The position numbers and the translations under genes are program-made. A DNA stretch of 64,000 nt, taken from the NCBI GenBank assembly GCA_903813345.2, contig CAIIXF020000003.1, positions 4,182,109 through 4,246,108 of the forward strand, read 5' to 3'. This DNA comes from Owenia fusiformis (Eukaryota; Annelida; Polychaeta; Sabellida; Oweniidae). This document shows, one piece after another, positions 35,881 through 60,200 of this stretch. Numbering within the stretch: position 1 is the stretch's first letter; each line of letters begins with the position of its first letter. Under the pieces are notes generated by a model, which was not told the DNA's origin, did no database searches, and saw only the letters and a program-made list of their open reading frames with translations.

Positions 35881-36136
35881 ACAATCTGAAAGTAATTTCT
35901 TTAATTGTCCAGCAATTGTATAATTAATGGGCATCTCACTAGAACATTTGCTATAAAGGATTACCAGGCATAAATACTTCAGCACAATCATACAAGATCC
36001 TAGCACCGGGCTACAACTTTTAAGCACAATCATATCTTTGTCAGATTGTGTGCGAAATTCTCAGCTTAGTAAAAATATGCATTATAAGCATGGAATATCA
36101 CATTTGAATCAAAGTCATGACTATCCTCATTTAGGT

Positions 36137-36443
36137 TACCATGGTATCAATTTTCCAGCATAATCATAGAAACTTGCATTTGTTTCTTCATTCTATGAGT
36201 TACCATGGTAATAATCTTCCAGCATATTCAGAGAAACTTGCATTTGTTTCTTAATTCTATAAGTTACCATGGTATTAACTTTCCAGCATAAGTTACCATG
36301 GTATAAACTTTCCAGCATAATTATATAAACTTGCATTTGTTTCTTAATTCTATAAGTTACCATGGTATTAACTTTCCAGCATAAGTTACCATGGTATAAA
36401 CTTTCCAGCATAATTATATAAAGTTGCATTTGTTTCTTCATTC
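36137..36443 (-). repeat. Tandem copies of the dehydrogenase 3' coding end
   Basis: Immediately downstream of the stop codon are about six full or partial copies (30-62 bp) of the last about 50 coding bases. Each carries the plus-strand landmark TTACCATGGTA (stop region) and most carry TTTCCAGCATAA. Higher-order pairing of a 31-bp short and a 62-bp long unit is visible. Confidence 0.85.
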
Positions 36444-39400
36444 TTACCATGGTATTAACTTTCCAGCATAATCATAGAAACTTGCATTTGTTTCTTCATT
36501 CAAGCCTTGCATAACTTTCAGCATTCCCGATATGGATTCACTCGATTCGATTAGGGCATTTTTCGTTCCGATATCGGTGAGCACCCATCCAGGATGCACC
36601 ACTGTTGCTAGGATACCATCCTTAAACAAATCACGTGCCAGGGATACGGTGCAAACATTTAAGGCTGCCTGAAATGCATAAATAAAAAGGCATCATAAAA
36701 CATGGAATTGTTCTAGTACACTGGACCAACAGGAGGAGAAATGCCATACAGTTGGACTCAAAATATCCACCATCTAGTTTCTGAATAAAACACGCTGTTG
36801 TAATGTTGTAATTTATGCAAACATATATGTACTCCTTACATCTCATTGTATGTTGTATTTCTTGTTAAGATATATATTTCCCGTTTGATATACAATAAAC
36901 CCTGTATCCAAAACCTCCTATAACATTATAACCCTAATATTTTGACATGATATAAATGTAATAACAAGCTATAACTAGATAATGGCAACTCCGCGGAGTA
37001 GCAAATCCCAACGAACAAAATATCAATTACCGAATTCCAATCAATTATACTCATTACTTTGGTTAAAATTGAAAAATTTAGATTTTAGAATTGCGAATTC
37101 CTGCAAAGCAGCCATTTTGAATTTTCTGAGGTACAAATCTGAAAAATAATACCATAATTGTGATCTACTCCAAAATTCCTTCAATTTGAGTATTATATAG
37201 CCATACGTTGAAGGGATCGAAAAATTATTGCGAAATCGTACATTAGACGGCCATTTTGAATTTTACGAGGCTCAAATCAGAAAAAGATACAATATTTGCA
37301 ATCTACTCTTAATTGCCTTTCATTTGAGTACAATAAACCTATACTTCAGAAAGATCTACAAATTAGCGAAAATTTCTGTTTTCCTGACCCCCCATACACG
37401 GCCCCTGGGGGTCAGGATGAAAAACACAGAATATATGTGAAATAGATAGATGTTGCGAATATACTACCAAAATTTCAAACAATAATATTAATTACTTTGG
37501 TTTAGAATGAAAAATTTATGATTTTTGCGAAAAAGTCCCGTCATTTTTTAAGCAGCGGCCATCTTGAAAAAAAATTTTTTGCGTAAAACTTTTCATCAAT
37601 ATACATCTTTCCACCGAATATGAAGAAAATCTGTCTACTAATATTTGAGTTATCTTCCGGACGGACGGACGGACGGACGGACTGACGGACTGACAGACTG
37701 ACGGACTGACGGACGGAGGGCTTCACTATATCCCTACCGAACTTCGTTCGTTGGGATAATTATTACATAAGCCAGAATTACTTCAAATTAACATTTTACT
37801 ACTACTTTAAGCTTTTTACAAAATGAGGTGTGTCAGTCATAGACCAATAAGAAGGGGTGCATCTTTTAAATGAAGCTGGATTCTTTGAATTATGGGGTAA
37901 CCACTCCCCCCCACACCCCCCTATTGTCCAGGGGTTGTATGTAATGGAAAATTTACTGATTTTCACAAATTAAGATTAAAATGTAAATGTACACTGATGA
38001 TAAAACAAAATGAACAATAATCTACTAATTATGAAAACTCATTATTTTTTACAGGCCGAGGGTAACAAAGGCCCAGGTATGGTATGACAAATGATTTTAG
38101 ACAGCCACATCTAATTTTACCATAACTACAACATATCTTATCAAAAAATGTTTCCCTCGTTGTAAGGTCCCCAAAATAATGTGAGTAATACATTGACGAA
38201 ATATTATAAGGGCAGGTTTAGTAATGACTAAGGTAATGTTGTTCAGTTTCAAATTGGTTAAGTATAGCAAATACGGTATGTTTTCAACACCATACCTACT
38301 GATGCAAAAAAAGTACAAATCACCGGCAAATTGTTAACAGCAATTTTAAACACAGGAAGTCACATGAACATGTACCTTGCTTGCTCTGTAAGCATACAAT
38401 CCTCCTCTTTTGTTGTCATCGCATGAACCAACCTTTGATGACACATTGACAATCGCTGCCCTTGCCCAGCCCAGTGGGGCGTCTTTCTGAGCATCCGCTG
38501 CACGCTTCAGTAAGGGAAGAAATGCCTGAAAGAGGAAAACAATATGCATTCATCTTTGATGACACATTGACAATCGCTGCCCTTGCCCACCCCAGTGGGG
38601 CGTCTTTCTGAGCATCCGCTGCACGCTTCAGTAAGGGAAGAAATGCCTGAAAGAGGAAAACAATATGCATTCATCTTTGATGAGACATGGATAATTGCTA
38701 CCCTTGCCCAGCCTAGTGGGGCGTCTTTCTGAGCATCCGCTGCACGCTTCAGTAAGGGAAGAAATGCCTGAAAGAGGAAAACAATATGCATTCATCTTTG
38801 ATGAGACATGGATAATTGCTACCCTTGCCCAGCCTAGTGGGGCGTCTTTCTGAGAATCCGCTGCACGCTTCAGTAAGGGAAGAAATGCCTGAAAGAGGAA
38901 AACAATATGCATTCATCTTTGATGACACATGGATAATTGCTACCCTTGCCCAGCCTAGTGGGGCGTCTTTCTGAGCATCCGCTGCACGCTTCAGTAAGGG
39001 AAGAAATGCCTGAAAGAGGAAAACAATATGCATTCATCTTTGATGAGACATGGATAATTGCTACCCTTGCCCAGCCTAGTGGGGCGTCTTTCTGAGCATC
39101 CGCTGCACGCTTCAGTAAGGGAAGAAATGCCTGAAAGAGGAAAACAATATGCATTCATCTTTGATGACACATTGACAATCGCTGCCCTTGCCCACCCCAG
39201 TGGGGCGTCTTTCTGAGAATCCGCTGCACGCTTCAGTAAGGGAAGAAATGCCTGAAAGAGGAAGACAATATGCATTCATCTTTGATGACACATTGACAAT
39301 CGCTGCCCTTGCCCACCCCAGTGGGGCGTCTTTCTGAGAATCAGCTGCACGCTTCAGTAAGGGAAGAAATGCCTGAAAGAGGAAAACAATATGCATTCAT

Positions 39401-42400
39401 CTTTGATGAGACATGGATAATTGCTACCCTTGCCCAGCCTAGTGGGGCGTCTTTCTGAGAATCCGCTGCACGCTTCAGTAAGGGAAGAAATGCCTGAAAG
39501 AGGAAGACAATATGCATTCATCTAAGAGCAAAGGTGGTGGTGTTTGAGGGGGTGGTTTGAACCCCACCCTAGCCAAAAATTGTTTCAAAATCTTGCAGTT
39601 TTTACCATTCTCAGCATTTCTCAAGTGATTTTGGCCATTTTTAGGCCAAAGTTGTCAAAAACGAACTCCCTTGGAATTTTTCAAAACAAAAACATTGAAA
39701 AATGCTTGCTATACAGGCCTACATCCAGTTGAAGGAAATCAAAGATTAAATACAATTTCTATGCACCTCATCCTCAAGTGGGTGCGGATTTTTCATTTGC
39801 ACAATTTGCACCAAATTTGCATGGTGCTTCTTACATGTGGCTATCAGAAAGAGGCAAACACCTCTTCTAACCTCTTCTGCCTCTCAATAAAAGCTAAATA
39901 AACTTAGCTCCACTCCAGAGAAGATTCAAATGTCTAGATCTTACAAAAATGTTGAGATTTCAAATAATAAACAGAATTTTTGACTTTGATCAAGCCAAAT
40001 ATCGTCTTCAGTCTATGGTTCATTTCAAGTGAAATGAACCATAAACCATACACATGCTTTACCTGAGAAATCAAGATAGGTGCGATAGAATTGACATCAA
40101 ATGTTTTCTTCATAACTTCAGCAGTAACATCAGGAAGGTTTGTCCTTATTAGAATACCAGCATTGTTGATTAGAAGATTGAGCCCATTTTCTTCAACTAT
40201 GGCTCCAACCTCTTCTGCAAGACTGGCATATCTTGATTCATCTGTGACTTCTGTAACATAGGGTTACATATTTTAAGCAATGGTAACAAATTTTGCAAAT
40301 TTGCCAGTTCAGATGTTCTCAGGCGAAATATTAGTTTCATATAAATTTCAAACTGAGAACTATAATCATGGGCTTTCAATGGGAGTCAGGATGTGTATAG
40401 ATGGCAGTTAACTACTACATGTGGGTTGTTCTTCACATCTGGCCCATTGGTTTGAGTGTAAATATTGCTGCTTCAAAACTTCAAATTCACTACACATATC
40501 AAATAAATATCATATTTTCCTTCATAGTATTTACAAACATGTTTTAAGATTCAAAATCAAAGGGTTTTGGATATTTTCAATCACATTTATTTTGGGGAGA
40601 TTTTTGGAGCAATTTTGACATGTTAAAGTATGCTATTAAACCCACTGAATTTTTCACCATCTATTGACAGTCCTGAAGGCCATTAGAAAGTTGAAAGCCC
40701 ATGCTATAATGGATATATAGAGGTGGGGGGGGGGTTAGTGGGTGGATGTGAAATACACACATACAATGGCAAAGTTTGTAATTTCAATTTAGAGAATAAA
40801 TACAATTGTATTTTTAAACAAAAAAACTCATACTGACCTAACTGAAGTATGTGGAGGTTACTATGACCAGCTTGAAGTGCTTGAAGGTCCTACAAATAAA
40901 ACAGCAACATGTATAAGCATTTTTATAAGCATTTTTATAAGCATTTGTATATCTATATCTCAATATGCACTGTGTTACCATATATGTGGGGTGACCACTG
41001 CAATGTCACACCGGAATAACCTGACAACTGTAAAGTCAGATATCCTTGTCACAAATGGTGGACATTACCGTTGCTTCAATTAGATTTTCATGAACTGTAT
41101 GTTTAATAGAGCGACTTGATTAAATTCTTTTGGTACAGCAATCACTCAAACTGTTTTTCTACTGATCATATAGTTAAAAAATAGAAATATGACACAGGAC
41201 AACGCATACTGTAGTGTACAGGTAGTGAAAACAGTAATATTTGACAACGGTGTATGTAAAGACAACGGTAAAGTGTCTATTTACTGTTGTCATGTTCCAA
41301 TGCAACACATCCACCATAGTCCGTTGTCACATCTTACCATATGCCGTTGTATTTGTAAATTATTTCAAATTCAGATTCCGTTGTCATAGACCATATCGAG
41401 GATCCTATGTTGTGGTAATTCACGACTCCATTTGATAGAAGTTGGGATTTCATATAGTACATCATCACAGGAGCTTAACAACATATGCACAGGCTATTCA
41501 AGTGTTATATTGCAGTGGTCACCCCACATTATAGTAACACAGTGCATATTGTGATATAAAAAACACTTAGCAACATATACAACCATTACAACCATTGCCA
41601 TAGCCTTACTTCCTGCGAAAGCTATGTGGATTTTGATCTATAGCTTTCCCAGGGCGCACTTGGGCAGCTCAATAATAGTGACCTTTAAAATATGAATAAA
41701 GATTTCAGCGGCTTACTTTTGGTCTCTAACTGTGTCTTACATCAGTATCATTAATCCGTGCAAGTATTGGAGCGCTGAAATACTTCTTTTTCGATCAAGA
41801 CTTGTAAATTGTTCATCGAGTGAATGTTTTATCGACCCATTTCAAATATGGCGGTTTGCTAGGAGTGAGATACACAACGATTGAAATGAATTTTGAGAAT
41901 GATTTAGGTTCGGACAACCTCCGGAGATTCACGGAAATGTCCGAGCAGAAAACGCCATATTGGAATTTGGCAGTAAAAACATTCACTCAACTAACAATTA
42001 CAAGTCTTTGTCGAAAAGGAAGTAATTCAGCGCACCAATACTTGCACGGAAGGATGATAATGATGTATTACATAGTTAGAGAACAAAAGTAAGCCGCAGA
42101 TCGACTTAATTCGATTTCAAAGGTCACTATTAATCAGCTGTCCACTTCCCCATTTGAGAGCCATAAGTTTCAAAATCTAACATGGCTCTCGAAGTGAGTA
42201 ACCATAGCCATATAAGGCTTTAACATTACCACGGTCATGACAGGACTTGCAATATAATAAAGCATTGTCACGGTCATATCAGGCTTTAACATTACCATGG
42301 TCATGACAGGCCATGCAATATAATATACATTCAGTCACAGTACAGTGGGGGACAAAAATAAAACGCAACATTCACAAGTTGTCACAATGAGCTAATTTCC

Positions 42401-43156
42401 AAGTTTCGTGTCTCAAACTCTCCCAAGCGGTAGAAAAATAATTCCCATTCACTAAAGTAGCACAATAAATGAATACAAAACTTCATACCTGCAAATAATG
42501 GATAAATCCCTACCAAATCGAATGAATGTTTTCATGAATCGCCATGTTTGTTATCCAAGGAAGGTTGACTCCCAGAATGCAACATCAGTTACCGTATTTA
42601 CTCATGACAGGTTTCAAAATGGCGGAACAGCATTTTGAAAGCTGGCACGTGTCATGTTGCATTCTGGGAGCCAATCCTCCGTTCCGGCGCAATCGGGCGA
42701 CAAAATCACCTCAACATTTGAAGAGGCGGCATAACATGTGAATATCCACTTCAACTTTTGAAGTTCTTATTTGTCATTAGGGACACAAATTCCACTATAT
42801 TTGGACTTACTCAGACGGAGAAAATAGAGCACTGAATACACTGAGGTAAGAATTTATTACATGTGCGACAGCATGTAATTTTCATAGCTTTTGCAATTCT
42901 TTATGATCCCCACTGTACATGTATGTAGCAATGCTAGCATTGTCACGGTTATACCGGACTTTCACGATAACAATAGATAGCATGTGGGCGCCTGTGCTTT
43001 GATGTCATCCCCACTGACACTTACCGCAGCTTCGGCAGGGTTTCGGCAGGTAGCAAACAAGTGTTTAGGCGGTTGTTTCATCGATAAGAACTGTTTTACA
43101 AACTCCAAACCGATTCCCCTATTGCACCCTGTAATTAACACGGACCTTGGCGACAT
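36444..43156 (-). CDS. Short-chain dehydrogenase/reductase (C-factor/sniffer type), 5 exons
   Basis: Exons: 43156-43025, 40889-40838, 40250-40063, 38525-38376, 36668-36444 (stop TAA). All are GT/AG and phases agree, giving 248 aa, the usual length for this cytosolic NAD(P)-dependent SDR group. Visible motifs are TGCNRGIG (cofactor loop, residue 9 on), NNAG (90-93), VSS (catalytic Ser near 154), YRASK (Tyr170, Lys174) and HPGWVLTD, with an ending (YAGKLIPW) typical of C-factor-like proteins. An in-frame ATG at 43222 could add 22 residues; 43156 was chosen because MSPRSVLITG is the family start. The substrate cannot be inferred. Exon 4's acceptor edge and exon 5's tail have both been amplified into tandem arrays. 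Confidence 0.93.
37090..37757 (-). mobile_element. Reverse copy of the palindromic-end element, with microsatellite
   Basis: Ends at about 37757 with ACCGAACTTCGTTCGTTGGG, the reverse of the end at 3521. GGAC/TGAC tetranucleotide runs lie at 37659-37716. GGCCATTTTGAATTTT-type motifs occur inside. Located in intron 4 of the dehydrogenase gene. Confidence 0.6.
37758..38375. other. Dehydrogenase intron 4, remainder
   Basis: AT-rich; no exon, RNA gene or terminal repeats recognised. Confidence 0.5.
38526..39520 (-). repeat. 121-bp array of dehydrogenase exon-4 acceptor edges
   Basis: Eight further copies lie beyond the intact exon, with acceptor landmarks (plus strand CCTGAAAGAGG) at 121-bp steps: 38526, 38647, 38768, 38889, 39010, 39131, 39252, 39373, 39494. 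Each unit holds the pyrimidine tract, the AG and about 90 bp of exon 4 up to VSSK, but no donor. Two sequence types alternate irregularly: ATTGTCAATGTGTC (as in the real exon) and ATTATCCATGTCTC. Confidence 0.93.
39521..40062. other. Dehydrogenase intron 3, remainder
   Basis: A dispersed repeat (about 39560-39690) shared with 35405-35600, followed by unremarkable AT-rich DNA. No exon recognised. Confidence 0.5.
40251..40837. other. Dehydrogenase intron 2
   Basis: No feature recognised beyond a G tract near 40725-40735. Confidence 0.5.
40951..41559. mobile_element. TIR element with arms of about 55 bp
   Basis: Left arm CTCAATATGCACTGTGTTAC ... GGGGTGACCACTGCAAT is mirrored on the right (ATTGCAGTGGTCACCCC ... 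GTAACACAGTGCATATTG). The centre has repeated CCGTTGTC/GACAACGG motifs. Non-coding; in intron 1 of the dehydrogenase gene. Confidence 0.7.
41665..42140. mobile_element. Foldback element with arms near 200 bp
   Basis: The left half (CAATAATAGTGACCTTT, GCGGCTTACTTTTGGTCTC, CAAGTATTGGAGCGCTGAA, GAGTGAATGTTTT, ATATGGCG) is repeated in reverse order and complement in the right half, ending AGGTCACTATTAATCAGCTG. The central loop is about 80 bp. The ORF here is a by-product. Confidence 0.8.
42341..42917. mobile_element. Possible TIR element (TACAGTGGGG ends)
   Basis: TACAGTGGGG at 42341 and CCCCACTGTA at 42908-42917 face each other. An internal inverted pair (CTCCCAGAATGCAACAT / ATGTTGCATTCTGGGAG) lies at about 42568-42671. 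Similarity further into the ends is weak. Confidence 0.45.
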
Positions 43157-44834
43157 GACAATGGGTAAACGACTTGCTAATTCGAAATAACGAAGGAATT
43201 CTAATGTTTTGATTACTTTCAAGATTCAACCGGTGCGTAATACGTCATCAAATATTGCGTACAGAAGAGATGACGAAGTACACATCTGAAGTTTGGAAAG
43301 TTCTAAAAATATTTTAATAAAGTCGATTTTTAGCAGATTATGCATATAAATCTAGTCTCAAGCGGAAGATTCCCAGAAAGGTTAGTTTTATATAGATTTT
43401 GTTGCAAACGTTAACTTAGAAGTCACTACCTGTGTAGGATTCATAGTCAGACTCTAACACCTTTCAGACAAAATTTCATCAGAATCAGATTTGAGGTTGG
43501 GGGAACACTGTAACATGTGTTTTCTCATACAAATGATCCGTCATGCAGGGAGGGGGGGGGCACAACCAAATGCTATAACATGTGTTTTCTCATACAAATG
43601 ATCAGTCGTGCAGTGAGGGGGGCACAACCAAATGCTATAACATGTGTTTTGTCTATGTCAATAATCTGCAAAAGGCTAGAGTAGATTTCATGGCCTGACT
43701 GTGTTGGTAGGAAGTCCCTTAATGTTGAAATACCCTGGGGCGACTGTCAGGCTACCGCGTTGACATCATACAAATGATCCGTCATGCCTCTCAGAGAGGC
43801 AGGAAGGGTCAGGAATTGACATGCTTCCAACTGTACTATAAAAATAAATTACAGTAAAACTTGTCTAAGTTGAACACCTTTGGTAGTATGTATCCAACAG
43901 AGGGAATATAATATAGAAGGTGGGTATGAGGTAGGAGGTTTATTATACAACGCCTCAGGAATTGACATTGTAATGACCCGAGGGCGCCCTAGTATGTATC
44001 CAACAGACTGACTAGAAGTCAGTCTGTTATGATGTACTACTTTCCTGTGGAAATTGCAGTGAAATTTTTTGCACAAAATTATCAATTAGGGGAACCATTT
44101 CTTCAATAAAATAAGCATTACAAAATTTCAATGAATTAGTAAGGTACAATTAAATGCGATAAAAAGAAACACAGCATATTGTCAAGTGGAAATAAAGCTA
44201 GTTGAAGTAACAAATGTGCAAATTAATTTTACCCAATCGGCCATTTTGAATAGCACTTCCTATGTAAACAAATATTTGAAATTACCAAACTTTAACATAG
44301 GTGCCTTATAGTCTGAATATAATTCAGACTAAATAGGATATAGTCTAGAGGGCGCCCCAGAGGAATGACTAACTAGGGTCATTACGACATGCTTCCAGGA
44401 ACTACTGCGTACTATGAAAATTAATTACAGTTAAACCTGTCTAAGTTGGACACTTTTGGTCTGTTGGTACCTCTGAAGTGTGTTTGTGTAGTAACATTTG
44501 CTCAGATTCATCAGATGGCGCCTGGGCAATGGAGTATTTTGTTTAAAACTGAATACACAATTTGAACAAAAAAAATACTCAATCGGCCAGGCGCCGGCTG
44601 ATGAATCAGAGCAATTGTAACCCGGGCATTAAGAGGTGTTCTACTCAATTTTTTAATATACTGTCAGTCAGTTGGTCTTAGGACACTGGAAAGTATTCCA
44701 CTTTCAGAGGTCTTCCATTTCTGCATGTGTTCCACTTTACAGGTTTCACTGTATAGTCGGAGGTAAATGAATACTATCTTATTGATGCAATACGCTTTTG
44801 TTTCAGATTCAAGGTTAGAGCTGAATCATTCCTG
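43157..44834. other. Intergenic region between dehydrogenase and DNLZ
   Basis: The genes are divergent, so both promoters should lie here, but no core motif is clear. It contains about 2.5 tandem copies of a unit of roughly 63 bp at 43511-43655 (ACAACCAAATGCTATAACATG) and fragments of the GGGTATGAGGTAGGAGG element near 43920. GTAATGACCCGAGGGCGCC occurs near 43972 (also at 33713). Confidence 0.5.
44490..44622. mobile_element. Foldback MITE (CGGCCAGGCGCC family), copy 1
   Basis: Outer arms GTAACATTTGCTCAGATTC / ATCAGAGCAATTGTAAC and inner arms GAGTATTTTGTTTAAA / GAACAAAAAAAATACTC are inverted relatives. A second copy is at 51098-51233. Confidence 0.65.
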
Positions 44835-44905
44835 GCAGGTATTGTGTGACGCAGGTATTGTGTGACGCAGGTATTGTCTGACGCAGGTATTTTCTGACGC
44901 AGGTA
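44807..44905 (+). other. Possible DNLZ 5' leader exon with repeated splice donors
   Basis: TTGTTTCAG ends at 44806, and five 16-bp repeats of GCAGGTATTGTGTGAC (one base varies) begin near 44835. Each repeat offers a CAG|GTATT donor. It lies 340 bp upstream of the DNLZ ATG. Whether this is transcribed is inference. Confidence 0.35.
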
Positions 44906-45241
44906 CTGTTTAATGTAACTCAAGTGTCAGATTGTGACATTGAGAGAATATTTTGACAACATTTAGAGGACATTGTATCTAAGAGTACAACTGGATTTAA
45001 CTACAACTGAACTAGGCCAGTAAAGCAGCATTTATCAAGTAACAAAAGAACTGAACAACAGAACACAATATAATTTATCCAATGACATTAGAAGCTTAGA
45101 GCATATCCAGTTACAATTACAACTGAATTCAGATCCAAAACGTACATACATATGTAAAGATGTATGCTTCATTATAAATTCAGAATTTGTTATCAGGTAA
45201 GGATACTAATTCATATTGCTTGCCAGTGAAATATTTTAAAA

Positions 45242-45811
45242 ATGGCGCTTCAAGTGAATTGTGGGAAAAAAATCTTGCGACTTGTATTGCAGCATGAACA
45301 CCTGTCAAAGAATAGGATACAACTATTGCATAGAATTCAAGCACACGGATCAACTTACCCAGCAAAAAACTTAAATTGTACTGCAAAAACTTTAAACAAT
45401 CCTGCAAAAGCATTCCAATGTATTACAGGACTACAGTGCCACAATACCAAAATTATTTGTTCAAGAAACTTTTCTACAACTACTCAAAAATATAACAGTG
45501 ATCAAAACGTTGATAATGATGCTAAACATGAATTAGGAAAGATGGAGCAGAAGCTAGCAATTGTATACACGTGCAAAGTGTGTCAAACAAGGTCGTCAAA
45601 AACTTTTGATAAATTATCATATGAAAAAGGAGTTGTTATAGTAACATGTCCTGGTTGTAATAGCCATCATTTAATAGCAGACAACCTCGGTTGGTTCAAA
45701 GATGTTAAAGGAAAAAACATTGAGGAAGTCCTTGCTGAAAAGGGTGAAAAGGTACAAAGGATAACTAATGATGGAACTTTGGAGGTAAATCTGAGTAAAA
45801 ACAATGAATGA
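45242..45811 (+). CDS. DNLZ: DNL-type zinc finger protein, mitochondrial HSP70 partner
   Basis: A 189-aa single-exon ORF. Residues 1-80 are rich in Lys, Asn and Gln, poor in acidic residues and end near FSTTTQ, as expected of a mitochondrial targeting leader. Residues 107-152 form the DNL zinc ribbon: CKVC (111-114), CPGC (136-139), then [11 protein letters not shown] with the D-N-L signature. Known members (Hep1/Zim17/Tim15/DNLZ) keep mitochondrial HSP70 soluble and support protein import and Fe-S biogenesis. The start at 45242 (AAAATGGCG) is the first ATG of the frame. The final coding bases and stop are copied in tandem just downstream. Confidence 0.95.
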
Positions 45812-46022
45812 TATTGTACCAGTTGAAATAATTGATTATAAAATATGAAAAAGGTAAAAAGGATAACAAATGATGGGAGTTTGGAGGTAAATCTGAGTAA
45901 AAACAATGAATGAAATTATACCAGTTGAAATAATTGATTATAAAATATGAAAAGGTAAAAGGATAACAAATGATTGGACTTTGGAGGTAAATCTGAGTAA
46001 AAACAATGAATAATATTATACT
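45749..46022 (+). repeat. Three tandem copies of the DNLZ 3' end
   Basis: The last about 60 coding bases plus stop and about 45 bases beyond occur at the gene end and twice more after it. Landmark is GGAGGTAAATCTGAGTAAAA at about 45781, 45883 and 45981. The downstream copies are non-coding unless reading skips the stop. Confidence 0.88.
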
Positions 46023-46819
46023 AGTCGAATAGATACTTGATATAGATTGCATCGCAGGTTTATCCAATAACTTCATACTCTTTTTATACATCTAATAGTC
46101 AGGGCACGCCTTAAGCGTCGGACAGCTGGTCATTATCTGGTTACTTTTGATACTGACCAGTTGATTTTTTCACTAGGTATAGGAAAATAACATTGCAACT
46201 GGTCAGTAATGCCTTTTTGACCAGCAGCTCTGGAATCCTTAGGGCATACACTGCTAATAGTCTATAAGGCATCCCCAAATATGATCAGCTTTAAACATTT
46301 TTCAACATTAGTTTACTAGAACTAGAATACTTCATTTTATAAATGCACTTTTAAATTAAAGAATTGTCTCATTAAAACAAAACTGATCAGTTAAAGCATA
46401 TGTCAAAACTTGTGGTACTCGATCATGAATTCTTACTTTATCAATGGATTTAAGGCTGTGTTCTCACTGAAATAAAAGTCAATAATTTTATACATACCAG
46501 TACATGATAGTTTTGTTAAATTTATGTTAAAGGCTGTTAAGCCCTTGGCTCAAAAGGTGTGGGTGATAAAAAGCATGAATGGTTTGTATAAGATTATAAA
46601 TAAGGATGCCAGCATTGGTTCAAAGGCTAGCATACTGAATTGTTCTGAATATTATAATAAGTGCATCAACTCAGAAGATAATGGTGGAATGTAAATGTAA
46701 ATTACAATACATATTTTTTGATTTCATTGAATACTACACGCACATTTCCACGGATGCAAGAGTATGGGAACAATTTATCATGTTAGTTTGTTTGTCTTAC
46801 AAACTTGGTATGGGCAAAA
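46023..46819. other. Intergenic, nothing recognised
   Basis: AT-rich DNA after DNLZ; a possible poly(A) signal (AATAAA) near 46470. Confidence 0.45.
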
Positions 46820-47410
46820 AGTGGTGACATTTTTTATGGTCTCTGTTTTTGTATGATGGTTGGCGATCAGCGTCTCTAACAAATTCTTACAACTTCCAAT
46901 AACTGCTGTTCAGACTGACTTCAATTTTTTTTCAAAATCATCTACATGTTTTCAGAAGTTCATATCTGACTTTAGATTTGACCGTTAATGACCCTTTCAA
47001 GGTCAAAAAAGGTCTTTTTTCATCTTGCTCCAAATTGACCACTTTTTCAAATCATCTACAAAATCTCAGAAGTTCACATCTAACTTCAGATTTGAGCCTC
47101 AATGACCTTATGAAGGTAAAAAATTGTTGTAAAGATACCTTTATTGACACTGAGCACGTCATTGAAAGTGAAATCTCAAATTAAAGTCAGATTTGAACTT
47201 CTGATCATGAAAAAAAGATTGGTCAATTTGAAGCAAGTTGAAAAAAAAACCTTTTTGACCTTGAGAAGGTCATTGAAGGTCCAATCTCAAATTTAAAGTC
47301 AGATTTGAACTTCAATTTTTAAGTTAACCGGATTATTATTGTTCAAATCTGACTAAGATTTAACTCCGATGGTGACATTTTGTCATGTTGATGCCCCGGG
47401 GTTGATGCCT
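46820..47410. mobile_element. Foldback version of the AGGTCA repeat element
   Basis: The left part is antisense to the right end of 30529-33225 (GTGGTGACATTTTTTATGG, GCGTCTCTAACAAATTCTTA). The right part is sense-like (TTGACCTTGAGAAGGTCATT) and ends with GGTGACATTTTGTCATGTTG. One or two satellite units remain on each side. Confidence 0.65.
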
Positions 47411-47551
47411 TGTTTGATAAATAAATAATTATTTGTATTATGTTTATTTGTAAATTCAACTTTATTCTGAATGATGCTATAACTTATTAATTACTTACAT
47501 GTACATCTTACGTCAAATGATCGACCTGACATCTTTATTGAATATACCATG

Positions 47552-48632
47552 CAATGGCGTAGCCAGGAGGGGGTTCGAATATTTTCGGCAAAACTTTTTT
47601 TCAGCCACCTAACGGTGATTTTGGTAAAAACCTTTTTAAATTTACTTAATAGCTGCCTTTTTTGCTTAAATTTTGCCAAATTTGCCGAATTTGGGTTAAT
47701 TTTATTACTTTTTGCCAGCTTGCCGGAATTTAGTTTTAAATTGCATGAGCAAAATCATAAGACAAGTGAAATATCCCAACTTTTGACCAATTTCGTTTAT
47801 TTGGAACATTTATAGGCAAAAATCTAGAACATTTTTCAACAAAGGTCTGTTAAAATTCCAAATTATGTTTTACCACTTTGTGGATAAGTAAGAAAAATAA
47901 GTCCAAAATAAATAGCTCAGGACATTATCAGACATAGACTCCTCCTCCAAATTAATCAAGCATATGTTATGTAATTCAATTGTCTTTTTTCCATCACTTT
48001 CTCAATGTGCTCATCGAATAAATAAGAGGGAAAAAATTGCAAAGATATAAGTTCCAATGAAAGAAAACAATTTTGAAAGTTACTCCTGACCAAAAATAGA
48101 ATTTTCTAGCTTTCAGGACTTTGGTGCCACGTGCCACGTACCACGTGCATTGCATCACTGAACTTTCAAATGTTCAAAATTCTCTGCTTTATATCATAAA
48201 TTAGGGACCATTTTGACCTTATATCCCAATCAGACAGTTTATACTCAGTAAGTATGTTTTATTTGTACAATTGAATTCCTTTTGATGGTATCAGAACAGT
48301 ATTTCAGGCCCAAAATGCAAAGTGCAAACCTATCATCGCCCATCTCAAAATAGATCGTTTTTCTTTATTCTCAGTCATTTAACTCATTGATGAGATAAAG
48401 TTGTACTTCTCACTTGCTTCCATCTTTGCATATACCTCGAATATCTATCGGTATATACCTCGGTAATCAAAAACGATAAATTAGTGAAATACTGCAAAAC
48501 ATTAACTGAAAATTTGGGGGTTCGCACAATTCCCGGAAAAGGTGGGTTCGGATTTTTTAGTCAGGATTTTTTTTTGGGGGGGGGGGGTTCGCACGCATCC
48601 TCCGAACCCCCTCTCCCTACGGCCCTGCCATG
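47552..48632. mobile_element. Non-autonomous element with GTAGCCAGG-type ends
   Basis: Ends TGGCGTAGCCAGGAGGGGGT and the inverse ACCCCCTCTCCCTACGG...GCCA suggest a hAT-like internally deleted element. The interior is AT-rich with no intact ORF. A TCCGAACCCCC/GGGGTTCG pair repeats near the right end. Confidence 0.5.
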
Positions 48633-50645
48633 GGCTTTCAATTAGAGTTGAAAGCCCATGAATATACATGTACATCAGTGATTTCCGTCATTCACAATCG
48701 AGTAATTAGGAAATTTTGATTCATGTTGTTCCACTTCTGTCTTTGGTTGGAGCTCGCTACCATACTGTAGAAATCCTGGATTCTACTCAAAGGCCGGTGA
48801 ATGGTTGGATCTTCGCGATTCAGACCGCTTGTCCTTCGTGAAAATAGGGAGGTGAAGCTACACGTTTTTAAGAGAACCTGTGTACGTGAGCCCGGGGTGC
48901 ATGAGTGTGTAATATTTCGACCTCCGGGGATTACTTTCCCGCTCTCAATTTCTTTTGCCAGACTAATTACAATTATTTTCCGTATTCCTTTATACTCAAT
49001 CGGCCAGCAAGTAAACACTACAAATGGCAGAACTAATCCATAGACCATAATTCGACACTTTCACATATGAGATTTTTAAAAAAAACATGTATCTTCCTTC
49101 CTTAATGATCAACAAATCCGTACCTGGTGCTCGAACGCGGGATTTCCCTATCCCCCATACGCTCGGCCAAAGCCTTGCCTCCTAGACTACGATGCTTAGG
49201 TGTCAATACTGTTTGGAAATGTAATAGTTGTTTTAATATTCTGCTTGGATGAACAAGAAATTGCTTTCGATATTTTGGATTTCAATAACTTATGCCCGAG
49301 TCATTTTTGGTTAAACACTCTCGATTGTCTACGAGACACCCCGATTTGTTGTAGCCGTCAATGTGCATCGACCAAGGGAAAGATCAATACCCGGTGATTT
49401 CAGCGGGAAGTGGCGTTTCGTTCAGTGGATGAGCTGCGCGCGCACGCATAAATGTGATTATCCAATATAATTAGGGGAGGGCTATTTGAAACAGTTTTTG
49501 GTCTCAGGCGCGACCCAGGGCTGTTGTCTTAAGGAAATTTCGTTGAAAATGAGCCATTCGGCTGATAATTGGTAAGAGTTTGCGATCTTATAATGTATAA
49601 CTGTTACTCAGACACATATTTTGACTCGATTCTGTTGGAAATAAGCTTTGGACCGAGAGATATTCACGATTGATATGTACATTTTTGATTGTGCCATTGC
49701 TTTTCCATTGCACAATCCATGTATTGATATAAGAAACATTAATAATGCAGATTGGTTTACCTTCAATACATGACAGACACTACATATCGGTCTATTAATA
49801 CCAGTTTGTGCCTTAAATAGTTTTATATTTCCATCCACGGCCTGGAGCCTGGGTGTGTTTGTCTCTTATGTGTATGCTTGTGCATGGACTTCTAATCACT
49901 AGCAGAATTTAACATGATGCAAACTCGACATTATAACTCATGTTGTAACATTTTGACTTCGCTGGAAAACAATAGGAATTATTTTTCTTGCCAATCAATC
50001 ATGAATCACAATCAAAATTTCAGAATGATCAATCAGGCAATGGTCCAAATCAAGTTATAACATTATATGATATCCAGCAAGAAGTCCGGTAGAAATACAG
50101 AATATTTAAACATCAAAGCTGAAAGTTAAAAGCTAATCTGTCAATTTTCTGTCTGCAAAAGAGCGTTTACATTTGACACAATAACAGACTGAGGCTTTGA
50201 AATCTAGGATTCCCCAGGAAAATATGACGTCATACTAATTAGCATAAGGATTTCCCTATTGGCCTGGGTCGCGCCTTGTTCGAAAACACAATCCATAAAT
50301 ACATGCTAATTTCTAAGGAGATAGGAAGTGTATAACGTGTTTATCGATTTTGTTTAAAGATTTAATCAATTATCAAATTGTTTAAGTGGATAAAGTGGTC
50401 ACACTTGCTTCAATTCATAGCGAAATCGACGGATAGAAACTGACCGAATTCCCGATATCCTACCCCGTATTACTGTAGGCTATAAGCACAGTGACCTACA
50501 GAGGGCGCTATCACAAACAAGTACTGCACGAACCGATAAATTCCCGGGTATTGTAACGCCCTTGCATCGACGTTGCAAATGCACCAAATCAATGGTTGGA
50601 TTCTTGTTTGCGATTCGCGAAAACTTTGCGATTGAAAAGCATTAC
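48633..50645. other. Intergenic region, few signals
   Basis: A tRNA-like stretch lies at 49125-49199. A pair GGCGCGACCCAGG (49508) / CCTGGGTCGCGCC (about 50262) are inverted and may bound a further element. No exon recognised. Confidence 0.4.
49125..49199 (-). ncRNA. tRNA-like or SINE head
   Basis: On the minus strand there is an A-box-like TAGTCTAGGAGG and, 40 bases on, GCGTTCGAGCACC resembling a Pol III B-box. I could not fold a complete cloverleaf with confidence, so a tRNA-derived repeat or tRNA pseudogene is more likely than a working tRNA. Confidence 0.3.
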
Positions 50646-50751
50646 CTCGATGCATTTCCTCGATGACGGCCTTCTGTACCTTAGGGTCAACAATTGTCCA
50701 AGCTTTGTTGTGCTTTGGGTCGAACTCTGTAATGACGCGCGTTTCGTTAGT
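50646..50751 (-). CDS. Orphan exon-like ORF
   Basis: Acceptor AAATTAG, 35 open codons (TNETRVITEFDPKHNKAW... to EEMHR), donor CGAG|GTAATG. It reads open when entered in phase 0. The preceding CAP-gene exon leaves one base, which would force TAC TAA here. It therefore either belongs to another minus-strand transcript or only contributes a stop. No family recognised. Confidence 0.35.
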
Positions 50752-51097
50752 CTAATTTAAAATAAATATTCAACAATCGATCACCATTATGAATTGCTTT
50801 ATTATCTTTTTATTGACTTCATCTTGATCAAGAATGCCAATTCCATTATACTATATCTGCAAATATCCCGAATCATCTAAGCAATTCTCTCAAGGGTTTC
50901 CATTACTCTGAAATCATAGATATATGATTGACAGATATTTACTTCGATTTCAATGAGAACTATGAAAACATTTATTGCAAAACGCTAATTATAGTATTTA
51001 AAATGCTAGGAATTGTCGCAGGCGTTTATCTTGTGACCGGATACTTATGACCGGATGCTTATTTCAATTTCACAGTTGGTTATTTCTGTAAATAATG

Positions 51098-51233
51098 CCC
51101 GGGTCACATTTGCTCCGATCCATTGGCCGGCGCCCGCCCTATTGAGTGTTCTGTTCAATATTGTATACAATTTTGAACAAAATACTCAATCGGCCGGGCG
51201 CCGTAGTGAAAATCGGCTCAAATGTGACCAAGG
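51098..51233. mobile_element. Foldback MITE (CGGCCGGGCGCC family), copy 2
   Basis: GGTCACATTTGCTCCGAT and its inverse (ATCGGCTCAAATGTGACC) bound the inner pair ATTGAGTGTTCTGTTCAA / TTGAACAAAATACTCAAT. Related to 44490-44622. Confidence 0.7.
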
Positions 51234-51252
51234 CATCAGCGATATGACGAGT

Positions 51253-54200
51253 CTAAATGAAACTTATCTTACATGTATTGTTACAGTTTTCATCACAAGT
51301 TGAAATACATAGGTTTCTAAACCACGAATTGCCGCATCTGTGTACACTATCGGCCTCATCGTGGTTATAGCAGGGCCATTCATTGGTGGCGGCTCCAGCA
51401 CTACAGTCAACTGCAGAATATACAAAAATAACAAGAATTACAGCACGAAAAATCGTCAATATCACGACTGCTTTTGGGTTTCATAATCTACTTCGTGAAA
51501 GGTGTTACCACATGGGATTATATCGTGAGGGGTGTTACCATATGAGATTATATTGTAAAGGGTGTTACCACATGTGATTATATTGTGAAGGGTGTTACCA
51601 TATGAGATTATATTGTGAGGGATGTTACCATATGAGATTATATTGTAAAGGGTGTTACCATATGGGATTATATTGTGAAGGATGTTACCACATGGGATTA
51701 TATTGTGAAAGGTGTTACCATATGATATTAAATTGTGAAGGGGGTTACCATATGAGATTGTATTGTGAAAGGTGTTACCACATGAGATTATATAGTGAAG
51801 GGTGTTTCCATATAAGATTATATTGTGAAAGGTGTTACCAAATGGGATTATATTGTGAAGGGTGTTACCATATGCGATTATATTGTGAAAGGTGTTACCA
51901 CATGGGACTATATTGTGAAGAGTGTTACCATATGCGATTACATTGTGAAAGGTGTTACCACATGAGATTATATAGTGAAGGGTGTTTCCATATGAGATTA
52001 TATTGTGAAAGGTGTTACCAAATGGGATTATATTGTGAAGGGTGTTACCATATGCGATTATATTGTGAAAGGTGTTACCACATGGGACTATATTGTGAAG
52101 AGTGTTACCATATGCGATTACATTGTGAAAGGTATTACCACATGGGATTATATTGTGAAGGGTGTTACCATATGAGATTATATTGTGAAGGGTGTTACCA
52201 TATGAGATTACATTGTGAAAGGTGTTACCATATGAAGATGATTATGATTTAGATTTAATAACAGTACAAATATACCCCCAAAATCAACATTAATTTAAGT
52301 TTTTCTCTCACCTGTCTCGCATAAGTCACCTGCATAGCCCGTCACACAGTCACATGCGCAGTTGGTAATGTTAAACGTTCCACCATTCTCACATCGCAAT
52401 ATGCCCGATAGGTTGGGACAATCTTTCAGATACATCTCTAGAATCAAATTAATCAACCTTGTTATATGTCGATTAGAAAAGCTGACGATAAATAATGATT
52501 ATAGTAACAGAAAGATGAGGACCATGATATGACGATTTGAAAAGCTGACGATACATACGAGAACTAATGGTTTTAGTAACAGTTAGATCAGGACCATGGA
52601 CAACTGGATGTTAGCTCTTTTAATGTTCAAAAACGTTGGTCAAAAGTATACTATATCCTACCCATTAATGAACTGAAAAATGTATTTGATCCATTATAAT
52701 TCATCTATCCTTTAACTTACCTTGTATTCAACTGCTGGCTGACGGATTAACCTACTATTTTATGACTAACTCATTCTAATATGAATCATGCATGTCACTA
52801 TTCCATTCATGTTTAATTTAGTCTGCTATAAAAAGTTGGTTTATCCGTTAGCCGACAGCCGAAAGTTACATTCGCGAAAACAAACTTACTCATGCACTTT
52901 GGAAAACAGGTTGCACTGCATTGGTTTCTGAACCATCCATTCGGGCACGAGTATGCGAATTCTGTCTCGCTCACAGAACCACACGGCCAAGCAGCCGGAT
53001 CACCAACAGTACAATTAGCAGAACAATCCTTGCCGCCCCATATTCCTGAACAATCGCACGTGCAACTAGCTGAGTTCCAAACTCCCCCATTTGTACACTC
53101 AAATGGATTACATACTATAATAAGTAAAAATGTAATACCTATATTTGAATATGTGTTTGATTGGTTTAGAGGGGTTATCAGCGATCTCAAGGTAAAATAA
53201 TCTGTATTATTGACGTATTATTGAATTGAATTGTCAGTTTGTTGATCAGTTATTTTATTGCTACAATTTGTTACACCTTGAACAAGTCTAATAAGCACAA
53301 CTTTTATCACAATGTGAGGATGACACTATCTTGAAAAAAAGATTCGCCTGTACATATTGTATTGAATTGTATTATTTTGCATCATATTGTATTGTATTGT
53401 ATTGCAGCGGCGTGCATTTATAATTCATCACATATACCTCTGACGCTATTCACATTCCCCCGACCCCATTATTTAATTAATATCAGAATATCATAAACCT
53501 ACCGTCGCATGCGCTTCCTTCCCAGGAGTTTTCACAAACACAGTCGCAAACGTTCGGAGATGTATCGAAGCTGCCGTGAACACATTCACCGTTATCAACG
53601 CAATCTAAATGTATTGTGAACTAATGTTAAAAAGGAAGGCGTTTTTGGTACAAGTATCAAAATGTGTTGTGAACTAATTTTAAAAAGGAAGGCGTTTCGG
53701 TACAGCTATCTAAATGTATTGTGAACTAATGTTAATAAAAAGGAAGGCGTTTTTGGTACAATTATCAAAATGTGTTGTGAACTAATGTTAAAAAGTTAAG
53801 GCGTTTCGGTACAGCTATCTAAATGTATTGTGAACTAATATGTTAGAAAGGAAGGCGTTTTTGGTACAATTATCAAAATGTGTTGTGAACTAATGTTAAA
53901 AAGGAAGGCGTTTCGGTACAGCTATCTAAATGTATTGTGAACTAATGTTAGAAAGGAAGGCGTTTTGGTACAACTATCTAAATGTATTGTGAACTAATGT
54001 TAAAAAATAAGGCGTTTTGGTACAAGTATCTAGATGTATTGTGATCTAATGTTAAAAAGGAAGGCGATTTTGGTACAAGTGTCTAAATGAATTGTAAACG
54101 AGTGTAAAAAAGTAGGGCGTTTTTGGTACAAGTATCTACTGTATTGTGAACTGAATGTTAATAAAGGCGTTTGGGTATAACTATCTAAATGTATTGTGAA

Positions 54201-57200
54201 CTAATGTTAAAAAGGAGGGCGTTTTTGGAACAACTAAAATGTAAACATGTAAAATATCATAATCAGATCTCGAGCTAATAGTATATTAACGTATTCAAAG
54301 GTGCTATCTGCACTGTGTTTTGACTTGGCTGAATATGACTTACCGCATTGCCCACATGCCCCCGGGCATTTCGTTCTTGCAATCACTGGATCGTTACAGT
54401 CAACAGTTTTGCAGTTTCCAAAATTCCTACAGCTTCCTGCAGATTTTATAATAGTAATAAATCATCATTTAAGTTGATATATTTGGAAAACTTGCGTAAT
54501 AATTAGAGGTTATGTCACTATCGTGGCATATATGCCCGAGGTCTCAGTGATATATGGCCCGACCTTGGGAGGGACATTGATCTCTGAGAACCGAGGGCAT
54601 ATGTGCCACCATAGTGACATAAACGATTTATAACATACCTATGATGATGTAGACTGGTCAGAGAGTACCGTTTTCTTACAGAATTGACTAACAAATTTGT
54701 TTGAAAATGATTGAAATGAGTTTAGAAAAATTGCTCGCGCAGTTTTATCTTCGATTGATTGGTTATGACGTCAGCGCCTTGACCAATCAGAAAGTTGGCG
54801 GGCGCGGGCTTTTCAAAACTTATATTGGCCCGCTGTCTTGTGTACACTTTGCACTATACATCATCATAGGTATGTTATAATACAGTTTATGTACCCCTTA
54901 TATTCCGGCTTATTTCAAGACATATGACCTATCAAATAACGTAAAACGTATTGTACATTATTTTTTACCGATGTTTTTAATTTATGAAACAAATTAAGGT
55001 TTACCCAGTGTTATGTTGTAATAAATTTTCAAGCACTCCCAACTGTTAGATTAATAATTTTAAATGTGATCAATTATGTACCAGTATGCAGTTGTCACAG
55101 CTACAAATATGTACAAATGTTAATATGTTTTAATGAAATGAATTTAGAAAAAATAAAAAAATAACCTATTTTGGTCTGGACTGGCATTTACATGAATAAC
55201 TAGGACTTTATATTGATCTTTGCTCTAGTTAAGTTACTCACTGTCACATTTCAGTCCGACGTTGTTGCGGTCACATTCGCATTGACAGGTATCTGGATTT
55301 AGATTTCCCTCATTGCACCGGTCAACCAAGGCACATTCTGAAACAGCAACAATGATTTATAGAGTATAGAGTATAATGAAGAACTGTGTGTTTGATACAT
55401 TCACATTGACAGGTGTCTGGATTTAGATTCCCTCATTACAACGGTCCACCAAGGCACATTCTCAAACAGGAACAATGATTTATAGAGTATAATGAAGAAC
55501 TGTGTGTTTGATACATTCTCATTGACAGGTGTCCGGATTTAGATTTTCCTTATTGCACCGGTCCACCAAGGCACATTCTGAAACAGCAACAATGATTAAT
55601 AGAGTATAATGAAGAACTGTGCTTTTGACACATTATCATTGACCAGTGTCCCGGTTTAGATTCCCTTATTGCACCGGTCAACCAAGGCACATTCTGAAAC
55701 AGCAACAATGATTTATAGAGTATAGAGTATAATGAAGAACTGTGTGTTTGATACATTTACATTGACAGGTGTCCGGGTTAAGGTTTCCCTCATTACAACG
55801 GTCCACCAAGGCACATTCTGAAACAGCAACAATGATTTATAGAGTATAGAGTATAATGAAGAACTGTGTGTTTGATACATTCACATTGACAGGTGTCTGG
55901 ATTTAGATTCCCTCATTACAACGGTCCACCAAGGCACATTCTCAAACAGGAACAATGATTTATAGAGTATATAGTATAATGAAGAACTGTGCTTTTGATA
56001 CATTCTCATTGACAGGTGTCCGGATTTAGATTTCCCTCATTACAACGGTCTACCAATGCACAATCTGTAACAGCAATAAAAGTATTTAGATTATATATTG
56101 TGAATCTAATTACATGCATACGATAATGGAAAAAATCTTTCAATGAACGAGTTTAAAAGAAGAAAACAAACTATGTTTCAAAATCTACTACTGGAAAAGA
56201 GGCCTCGCTGTGCTTTGGCCACAAATGTGGAAGAAGGAAAAACAATTTTCATTTAAGACTCTCCCTACTTTTCTCAAATGAAGACAATTAGATAGTTATA
56301 AGTTAAACAATTTAGGTTATACTGATGTAGTAAACGTATAACTTCACCAACATTATCGAATTTATTTTATATAAAAAAAGTATACATGATACAATAATGA
56401 CACAGTACAATAATGATACAGTACAATAATGATACCGTACAATAATGATACCGTACAATAATGATAGAGTACAATAATAAGGAAAGCCAAAAAACCAATA
56501 AAGGTGAAATTCAAATAATGCGAATGGTTGATGAACTGATGATTCAGAATTACCCATTCTCTAATATAAGGGTTTTGAATAAACATTGTAGATAAAACCA
56601 TGTTAAAATGAAGAAGTTATTTTTAATGTAGAATAGAAATAGTAAAATCGTTTGTGCACCATGGTGAAAAAATTAATTCGAGTTTAAAATTATCATCCAT
56701 AATGGTAGTTAAGAAAAGTTCGTTAAATGAAAATAATCTTTCATTGCCTTCTCTATACATCTAGCAATACGTCTGATTTCCCTTTAATAGCCTCTTTAAT
56801 ACACACATCTAGCAATACGTCTGATTTCCCTTTAATAGCCTCTTTAATACACACATCTAGCAATACGTCTGATTTCCCTTTAATAGCCTCTTTAATACAC
56901 ACATCTAGCAATACGTCTGAGTTCCCTTTAATAGCCTCTTTAATACACACATCTAGCAATACGTCTGGTTTCCCTTTAATAGCCTCTTTAATACACACAT
57001 CTAGTAATACGTCTGATTTCCCTTTAATAGCCTCTTTAATACACACATCTAGCAATGCGTCTGATTTCCCTTAAATAGCCTCTTTAATACACACATCTAA
57101 CAATACGTCTGATTTCCCTTTAATAGCCTCTTTAATACACACATCTAGCAATACGTCTGATTTCCCTTTAATAGCCTCTTTAATACACACATCTAGCAAT

Positions 57201-60200
57201 ACGTCTGATTTCCCTTTAATAGCCTCTTTAATACACACATCTAGCAATACGTCTGAGTTCCCTTTAATAGCCTCTTTAATACACACATCTAGCAATACGT
57301 CTGGTTTCCCTTTAATAGCCTCTTTAATACACACATCTAGCAATCTGATTTCCCTTTAATAGCCTCTTTAATACACACATCTAGCAATACGTCTGATTTC
57401 CCTTTAATAGCCTCTTTAATACACACATCTAGCAATACGTCTGATTTCCCTTTAATAGCCTCTTTAATACACACATCTAGCAATGCGTCTGATAATGGCC
57501 TCTTTATACCCTCTTTATACACATCTCTAGCAATACGTCTGATTATGCACTGATATAAATATACGTAGTCATGTTTTGTAATCACGTTTGTATTGAAGAG
57601 TTTACTTACTGCATTCTCCAGACTCTTTAGTTCCTGGTGGACACTCCTCGACTGAAATGCAATTAGATTTTCTTGATAATGAACTGACTCTTGGTATTCC
57701 ATGTCATTACCAAGTTAAAGAATCTCATATACAATATATACGTATGCTACGTAATTTTACAATCAATGGCAATATCGAGCATTACCAAGTTAAAGAATCT
57801 CATATACAATATATACGTATGCTACGTAATTTTACAATCAATGGCAATATCGAACACATATATACGTATGCTACGTAATTGTACAATCAATGGCAATATC
57901 GAACACATGTGTTACTCATTCCATTATGCATCCAATTTTATCTTACCGCACAATTTCTTGTAACACCAACCGTTGCCATAGCGACAATTTGTACAGGGTT
58001 CTCCGACTTCATATAAACGAGAGGTACCGTTGGAAAGCTGATATACTTTCTTTACATAGTCACCAAGATCCGTAAAGCTAAGAATTAAGAAATGAATGTA
58101 TCAATTTTATTTTCCCAAATCTATGTTAACAAAGTCTAGAAAAATTGAACAGGTGAACAATTGAAAATGAATATATGCCTACATAGTCCATAAATGTGAC
58201 AGATATTAAATCAAAAAATTCAATATGAAATCTATATTCGTATTTAAACTGATTCTCATTTTGTAAGTGGAATTGATAACATAATGAAGCTCCACGTATT
58301 TACGATACTTCAGATTCGGACAATATATGCACCAAGAATAAAAACACCAGTCATTTATTACGTGAATTGAGTAATCATCAATTTTAGACACGAGGTCGTC
58401 AACTTCAAACGCAACTACTAAATTCTTTATCGTAGGGTGTCTTATTAAAACTGTCAAATGGGGTAACGATTTTGGCGGGGATTTTGGACTCCAATCGCAG
58501 ATGGCCGAGGATCTTAACTTATTAGAATCCTTTACGCAATTTGATTGGATCCTTGAAGCATCTTCGTTCATCTTCGTGATATAAACATCTTCGGCCATCT
58601 TCGTGATATAAACATCTTCGGCCATCTTCGTGATATAAACATCTTCGGCCATCTTTGTGATATAAACATCTTCGGCCATCTTCGTGATATAAACATCTTC
58701 GGCCATCTTCGTGATATAAACATCTTCGGCCATCATCGCGATATAAACATCTTCGGCCATCTTAGTGATATAAACATCTTCGGCCATCTTCGTGATATAA
58801 ACATCTTCGGCCATCTTCGTGATATTAACATCTTCGGCCATCTTCGTGATATAAACATCTTCGGCCATCTTCGTGATATAAACATCTTCGGCCATCTTCG
58901 TGATATAAACATCTTCGGCCATCTTCGTGATATAAACATCTTCGTTCATCTTCGTGATATAAACATCTTCGGCCATCTTCGTGATATAAACATTTTTGGT
59001 TGCTGTACATTGATGATTACTCTTTGAAATGTTCCTTAGGTAAACTTACGTTGAGCGATACTTGCAGACCAAATTACTTGGCTTTTGCTGTGAGGAACAA
59101 TCAAATAAACCACAACCAACTTCAGTAACTCTAGCCCCGTCTTGCTGCAACAAAAAATAATTAAATACTACATACTAGTACGTCCATGTTATCAATAAAT
59201 ATTGGGGGCAAGTGTGTAAGTGTTTATTTAATTTGATATTTTGAGAGATTATGAATCTTTGGTTCTCACACCAACGTCAACCAATACTATCTAAATTGAT
59301 TAGTAATCACATACGTATACTCCCTCCGGCGCGTTGACGCACCGCAATAATTTCTCAAAATTCTATATGTTGATGGCCAATCAGATAATTTTCAATGGTT
59401 GAAAATCAGTGGTTGAGAAAATCAAGGTTGAATAAATATTGACTGTGTGCTAAACCAACATTGCTGTGTATGTATGCGTTTAAATCTTAGTTTCGTTCTT
59501 TCATCACAACAATACTTCTCTTATTTTCAATGGTTGAAAATCAATGGTTGAGTAAATCAAGGTTGAATAAATGTTGACTGTGTGTTAAACCAACATTGCT
59601 GTGTATGTATGTGTTTAAATCTTAGTTTTGTTCTTTCATCACAACAATACTTCTCTTATTTTCAATGGTTGAAAATCAATGGTTGAGTAAATCAAGGTTG
59701 AATAAATGTTGACTGTGTGTTAAACCAACATTGCTGTGTATGTATGCGTTTAAATCTTAGTTTCGTTCTTTCATCACAACAATACTTCTCTTATTTTCAA
59801 TGGTTGAGAAAATCAAGGTTGAATAAATGTTGACTGTGTGTTAAACCAACATTGCTGTGTATGTATGCGTTTAAATCTTAGTTTCGTTCTTTCATCACAA
59901 CAATACTTCTCTTATTTTCAATGGTTGAGAAAATCAAGGTTGAATAAATGTTGACTGTGTGTTAAACCAACATTGCTGTGTATGTATGCGTTTAAATCTT
60001 AGTTTCGTTCTTTCATCACAACAATACTTCTCTTATTTTCAATGGTTGAGAAAATCATGGTTGAATTAATGTTGACTGGCGACAACCGTGACCCACTTAA
60101 CTACAGAGCAATCAGCCTAATCTCAGTGCCATGTAAAATATACTGTGATATTCTTAACAAGCGCCTTACAAATTCCTTGAGAGCAATAACTTATTGGTTG

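Follow-up and report, generated by a model that had tools for sequence, protein, structure and literature searches.

Exon-edge minisatellites in unrelated genes of the annelid Owenia fusiformis

In a stretch of 64,000 nucleotides from the Owenia fusiformis genome (assembly GCA_903813345.2, contig CAIIXF020000003.1, here C3, positions C3:4182109-4246108; "the window" below means this whole stretch), exon edges of three unrelated genes, a dehydrogenase (SDR), a DNLZ-like gene and a CAP/EGF gene, are repeated in tandem. The locus raises the question of how exon parts come to be amplified in this way, and whether a mechanism shared between the genes is at work, as a first-pass annotation of the window had proposed. 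Our analysis indicates that the arrays are probably locus-specific minisatellites, produced by local short-homology tandem duplication and then expanded and homogenised, with the exon copy under selection. The genome (498.3 Mb in 525 contigs) appears to make such arrays readily and exon edges appear somewhat over-represented among them, either because arrays start at edges more often or because exon-pinned arrays are harder to lose.

Tandem Repeats Finder (TRF) returned 68 rows in the window. The five arrays that the annotation had described as built from exon parts are all present, both in the TRF output and on reading; arrays are listed without strand, with the evidence for each in brackets.

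36135-36501: SDR exon 5 array, coding end plus stop, running into the 3' flank (TRF, reading)
38433-39523: SDR exon 4 array, 121 bp x 9, outward into the intron (TRF, reading)
45745-46029: DNLZ array, 102 bp x 2.8, coding end plus stop (TRF, reading)
53603-54236: acceptor array of the CAP/EGF exon at 53503, 52 bp x 12 (TRF)
55273-56076: array of the CAP/EGF exon at 55242, about 123 bp x 6.6 (TRF, BLAST)

The unit of the SDR exon 4 array joins 28 bp of intron end with its AG to 93 bp of exon, and the AG is intact in all eight outward copies. The 55273 array has a unit of 65 bp of exon and 58 bp of intron with the acceptor, and its six outward copies likewise keep the AG (6/6). As delimited by TRF, the 53603 array takes in the acceptor and no more than 2 bases of exon; the AG is intact in 8/11 copies. 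The SDR exon 5 and DNLZ arrays hold a coding end instead of an exon-intron boundary: the former repeats the last 58 coding bases, the stop and flank (three outward copies, period 93 bp), the latter the last 67 coding bases, the stop and flank. In all five, the copy at one end belongs to the working gene and the rest lie outward from it, as had been noted. Since inward copies would break the coding sequence, this geometry is expected of any intact exon and follows from it by necessity. Two further units like the SDR exon 5 coding end lie at 33371-33499, 3 kb past the gene, and may be what is left of another copy of it.

The host genes were modelled with 16 exons in 36.0-60.1 kb, whose internal edges carry canonical splice sites. 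The SDR gene has five exons on the minus strand, and the CAP/EGF gene ten exons on the minus strand at 50.6-59.2 kb, with another CAP exon near 63.0 kb whose position is only rough. Pfam gives clear support for SDR and for the DNL zinc finger, and CAP barely passes its cut-off (21.6 vs 21.1 bits). The exons that bear on the arrays are as follows.

43025-43156, minus strand: SDR exon 1 (exon model)
40838-40889, minus strand: SDR exon 2 (exon model)
40063-40250, minus strand: SDR exon 3 (exon model)
38376-38525, minus strand: SDR exon 4, working copy (exon model)
36444-36668, minus strand: SDR exon 5, coding end at 36444 (exon model, Pfam)
45242-45811, plus strand: DNLZ-like gene, one exon (PF05180)
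53503-53604, minus strand: CAP/EGF exon, acceptor within the adjacent 53603 array (reading, exon model)
55242-55337, minus strand: CAP/EGF exon, working copy (reading, exon model)

The SDR region occurs a second time, which allows the arrays to be compared between copies. More specifically, C3:4341206-4353314 (12.1 kb, with N runs on both sides) matches window positions 38342-44665 in the same order; outside the SDR array, five pieces align at 93.0 to 98.7% identity. Exon 5 of this second copy was not found in searches and may sit in an N run. The SDR exon 4 array has 9 units in the window and 14 in the second copy, and an off-edge array, given below, has a counterpart of 62 bp x 31.3 there (2.2 copies in the window).

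43511-43650: off-edge array, 65 bp x 2.2 (TRF)

The individual SDR exon 4 units fall into two types. The exon-attached unit is of type A in both copies of the region, one base apart, and type B units are marked by six shared differences from type A. All 13 outward units of the second copy are type B; so are five of the eight in the window, one of them with a single A-like base, the other three being A-like. The type B consensus is identical in both copies. Since 85 of 1907 aligned bases of the neighbouring intron are different between the two, this identity hints at exchange between the SDR copies or alleles.

The 55273 array also has relatives elsewhere in the genome. Arrays of the same type, with an identical exon breakpoint, are found in two CAP paralogues, Q1 (C3:1.89 Mb) and Q2 (C4:10.86 Mb). 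In a tree of the units, in which many inner nodes are weak, window and Q1 units are mixed, so that homogenisation is incomplete there and the array predates the window/Q1 split. The Q2 units form one clade with a support of 99, and the Q2 exon copy lies inside it, which means that the exon copy itself joins in homogenisation. On this sequence evidence, the 55273 array goes back to before two gene duplications. The 53603 array has about 7 copies in Q1 and a single copy in Q2. The annotation had also suggested that selection keeps the exon copy fixed, and here the two genes differ: in SDR the unit attached to the exon is preserved and most outward units have drifted to another type, whereas the Q2 CAP exon copy has been homogenised with its own outward units.

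The course that best fits these observations is probably the following. The process would start when some 30-150 bp are duplicated in tandem with hardly any homology, or none, at the junction, as is seen in a few low-copy cases. Length change and homogenisation by unequal exchange or gene conversion would follow, a process to which the length differences and unit trees point. If an exon edge falls within the duplicated piece, one copy would have to stay the working edge and the array could grow outward only; the coding part of the working copy would be kept by selection and the other copies would drift. Junction overlaps in nine low-copy arrays agree with the short-homology slippage suggested at first pass, in that six of them lie between -2 and +3 bp (three edge, three off-edge). 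As for a shared mechanism, the array class does recur in unrelated genes, but a separate mechanism specific to exons finds no support, the unit sizes and junctions of edge arrays resembling those of intronic arrays.

We then asked whether arrays coincide with exon edges more often than chance predicts, in a window that had been picked out for its exon-edge arrays before testing. The off-edge arrays in and next to the CAP/EGF gene, which also served as the comparison set for the paralogues, are listed here.

51495-52235: off-edge intronic array, 30 bp x 24.7, with a related array in Q1 (TRF)
56757-57544: off-edge intronic array, 48 bp x 16.5 (TRF)
57705-57908: off-edge intronic array (TRF)
58559-58993: off-edge intronic array, 27 bp x 16.1 (TRF)
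59388-60078: off-edge array (TRF)

The Q1 intron that matches 56757-57544 holds a different array, with units of about 16 bp against 48 bp in the window.

Under a whole-array null, arrays were shifted over 36.0-60.1 kb and any copy was allowed to touch an edge. As a real edge lies in just one unit of each array, we judged this null too generous. In the one-unit null, each array was collapsed to one unit that had to reach 5 bp or more past the edge in both directions; the 53603 array fails this rule and went uncounted. With the smallest well-scoring period as the unit, 4 of 11 window arrays lie at an edge against 1.49 expected (P 0.046, post hoc), and 4 of 11 against 1.85 (P 0.087) if the best-scoring TRF row supplies the unit. 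The one-unit null was chosen after viewing the window and chaperonin arrays, and before the proteasome analysis.

Independent genes were selected by family, regardless of repeats. These comprised chaperonins (PF00118; 56 of 60 matches in ten loci, four matches at three other places being left out), proteasome subunits (PF00227; 29 of 29 matches, 13 loci) and aldehyde dehydrogenases (PF00171; 16 of 16 listed matches in ten short stretches, from the best 12 of 214 candidates scored). Exon ends were set by splice-site score, and a few are wrong, for example last-exon ends. In a first run, the unit was taken from the best-scoring TRF row and the chaperonin exons were the initial set. The revised run used the smallest well-scoring period and 15 chaperonin exons added by local profile, with array copies and weak candidates dropped by judgement.

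In the revised run, the chaperonins have 8 of 22 arrays at edges against 3.63 expected (P 0.009), and chaperonins and proteasome genes together 11 of 36 against 4.85 (P 0.003). The three families combined give 11 of 40 against 5.34 (P 0.0075). Counting by locus gives 8 of 23 against 3.46 (P 0.0025), and looser array calling leaves 11 edge arrays against 4.67 to 4.92 expected. When one missed last exon is added, the count becomes 12 of 40 against 5.44 (P 0.003), and P is 0.009 once a doubtful CCTe array is then dropped. In the first run, the chaperonins alone gave 7 of 22 against 3.51 (P 0.03).

Among these genes, the chaperonin gene CCT2 (C11:119800-143000) has four edge arrays, the largest of which spans 5.2 kb and consists of 49 units of 105 bp with the donor. 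A proteasome gene at C3:18451134-18453618 carries 30 units of 83 bp from the start of its last exon, and of the 28 complete copies before the working exon, 27 have a frame that stays open from their acceptor up to a stop where the units join. That these units are themselves complete last exons was ruled out, as the working exon sits at the 3' end of the array. Across the other genes, the splice signal is kept in all copies walked, except in CCTe (2/4) and in one CCT2 array (10/16).

Several results weigh against reading the arrays as minisatellites with a preference for exon edges. The whole-array null finds no excess in the window, with 5 of 11 arrays at an edge against 4.67 expected (P 0.55), so that here the shuffled-interval comparison, proposed at first pass for the whole genome, shows an excess under the one-unit null only. 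The first run of chaperonins and proteasome genes together yields a weaker signal, 10 of 36 against 5.29 (P 0.02). Without CCT2, 8 of 32 arrays remain against 4.82 (P 0.076), and with locus-specific arrays alone and CCTe uncounted, 6 of 21 against 3.61 (P 0.11). The three remaining junctions, at -12, -18 and +43, fall off the short-homology picture. Furthermore, the exons and the splicing past the arrays are computational predictions, and the second SDR region may be the other haplotype, left unmerged, or a recent duplicate. The edge excess is about twofold, dependent on the null and partly carried by CCT2, and is not secure.

Among the explanations for such an excess, a bias in survival comes out tentatively and slightly ahead, and is still less likely than not: arrays would arise anywhere, and those pinned to an exon would persist and expand while intronic ones vanish. 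The excess is stronger above 3.2 copies (7 of 19 arrays at edges against 2.29, P 0.002) than among arrays of up to 3.2 copies (4 of 10 against 1.95, P 0.08). In addition, 3 of 4 comparisons with the CAP paralogues recover an edge array, against 1 of 10 for the five CAP arrays off the edges (one-sided Fisher 0.041). Yet the two array-length classes do not differ significantly, and the paralogue counts are few, come from a single gene family and were scored by hand from the output of BLAST and TRF; in the 51495 intron, Q2 has an array whose motif is loosely similar, which was counted as not shared, having no BLAST match. A pinned array can also collapse to one copy, as the 53603 array would have done in Q2 unless the single copy is the original state.

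It is somewhat less probable that the bias lies at birth, with duplications beginning more often at exon edges because of a base-composition step, chromatin or transcription at the boundaries. The lean of arrays of up to 3.2 copies towards edges speaks for this, but it fades under looser calling (4 of 27 against 2.34, P 0.17). Off-edge arrays within 80 bp of an edge, in the window and the other genes, are likewise more frequent than expected (8 of 25 against 2.44, P 0.003). This is due to the window, where 5 of 7 lie so close (null 0.85); outside it, the figure is 3 of 18 (null 1.6, P 0.21).

Pure chance is a similarly doubtful account: arrays would occur everywhere, some would happen to include edges, and exons would matter only through selection against damage. 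It draws on the whole-array result, on the weakening without CCT2, on the proteasome genes alone (3 of 14 against 1.22, P 0.12; in the first run against 1.78, P 0.25) and on the aldehyde dehydrogenases (0 of 4 against 0.49). Against it stand the one-unit result for the three families and the count by locus, along with the stability of the former across calling thresholds. GC content does not explain the pattern either, since off-edge arrays (0.34) resemble introns (0.335) and not exons (0.425), leaving base composition as no simple cause. Reinsertion of rolling-circle or extrachromosomal circular DNA copies at or near their source, also raised at first pass, is highly improbable, having only the tandem form in its favour, while array-DNA searches, in which the best candidates were scored, traced units to no place but the source locus and its duplicates, with the single exception of a 58 bp match on contig C464.

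The surroundings of the arrays show further features. By eye, open frames at 60003-61814 resemble a LINE reverse transcriptase, and an open frame of 898 aa at 25512-28208 contains several zinc-finger-like motifs. Tandem units of dispersed families occur at 4036-4326 and 13966-14372, which match arrays in proteasome stretches, and at 30878-33049, which match arrays in both chaperonin and proteasome stretches. Elsewhere in the genome, a 15 kb stretch of contig C6 has three places where the haemoglobin-linker domain PF16915 scores above its cut-off; two of them, when rescanned, score 41.5 and 32.9 bits against a cut-off of 27, and the best solved chains for these places are haemoglobin linkers (E 0.0016 to 0.082). 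Going by its Pfam name, we take this family to be confined to annelids, which agrees with the host. A search of the genome for COX1 gave no hit.

If the edge excess is real, a second phylum would show a link between gene structure and the turnover of minisatellites. It would also offer a testable way for introns to be gained and splice sites to shift, some genes having dozens of spare acceptors or donors beside the working one. We consider it possible, though with reserve, that, genome-wide, minisatellites preferentially start or become anchored at exon boundaries and that the arrays act as long-lived stores of spare splice sites for new exon or intron ends. In genomes of this kind, exon ends may be wrongly placed by gene prediction and by the mapping of short reads.

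Related arrangements have been described in other animals. In the available portion of a report on human genes in segmental duplications (PMC2812944), internal tandem repeats are likewise variable and located at exon-intron boundaries of duplicated genes; those repeats go with altered introns and exons at the transcript level, whereas the arrays here are known from DNA alone. Earthworm metallothionein genes, as far as the account available goes (PMC12783039), share the annelid setting and have intragenic minisatellites that vary between duplicates, but these are placed within the first intron and include no exon boundary in the unit as described.

The closest parallel is offered by the lancelet "mirages", tandem repeats that span exon-intron boundaries (PMC3087553, PMC3902484). 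As excerpted, these reports concern PGBD5 (PMC3902484, which also cites Adh3 and troponin C), record somatic instability for Adh3 and regular splicing despite the spare splice sites, and model intron gain or splice shift from such arrays in globins (PMC3087553). Keyword searches of the open-licence literature turned up no obvious account of mirages beyond the lancelets. The arrays studied here belong to the same kind, in an annelid and in unrelated housekeeping genes. The boundary lies within the unit in SDR exon 4, the CAP exon at 55242 and 11 of 40 arrays in other genes; both 5' and 3' exon boundaries are represented, with acceptor and donor types; and concerted evolution is seen in the Q2 clade, incompletely between the window and Q1. 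So far as the lancelet descriptions extend, both systems have boundary-spanning, locus-specific units of similar size on the acceptor and donor sides, many copies with AG or GT, and partly homogenised units. Copy number varies between haplotypes in lancelets; the corresponding difference here is 9 against 14 units, the second copy being a haplotype or a duplicate. What sets the present arrays apart from those descriptions is the annelid host, the two arrays of coding end plus stop, lengths of up to 49 units and an edge excess tested against a null.

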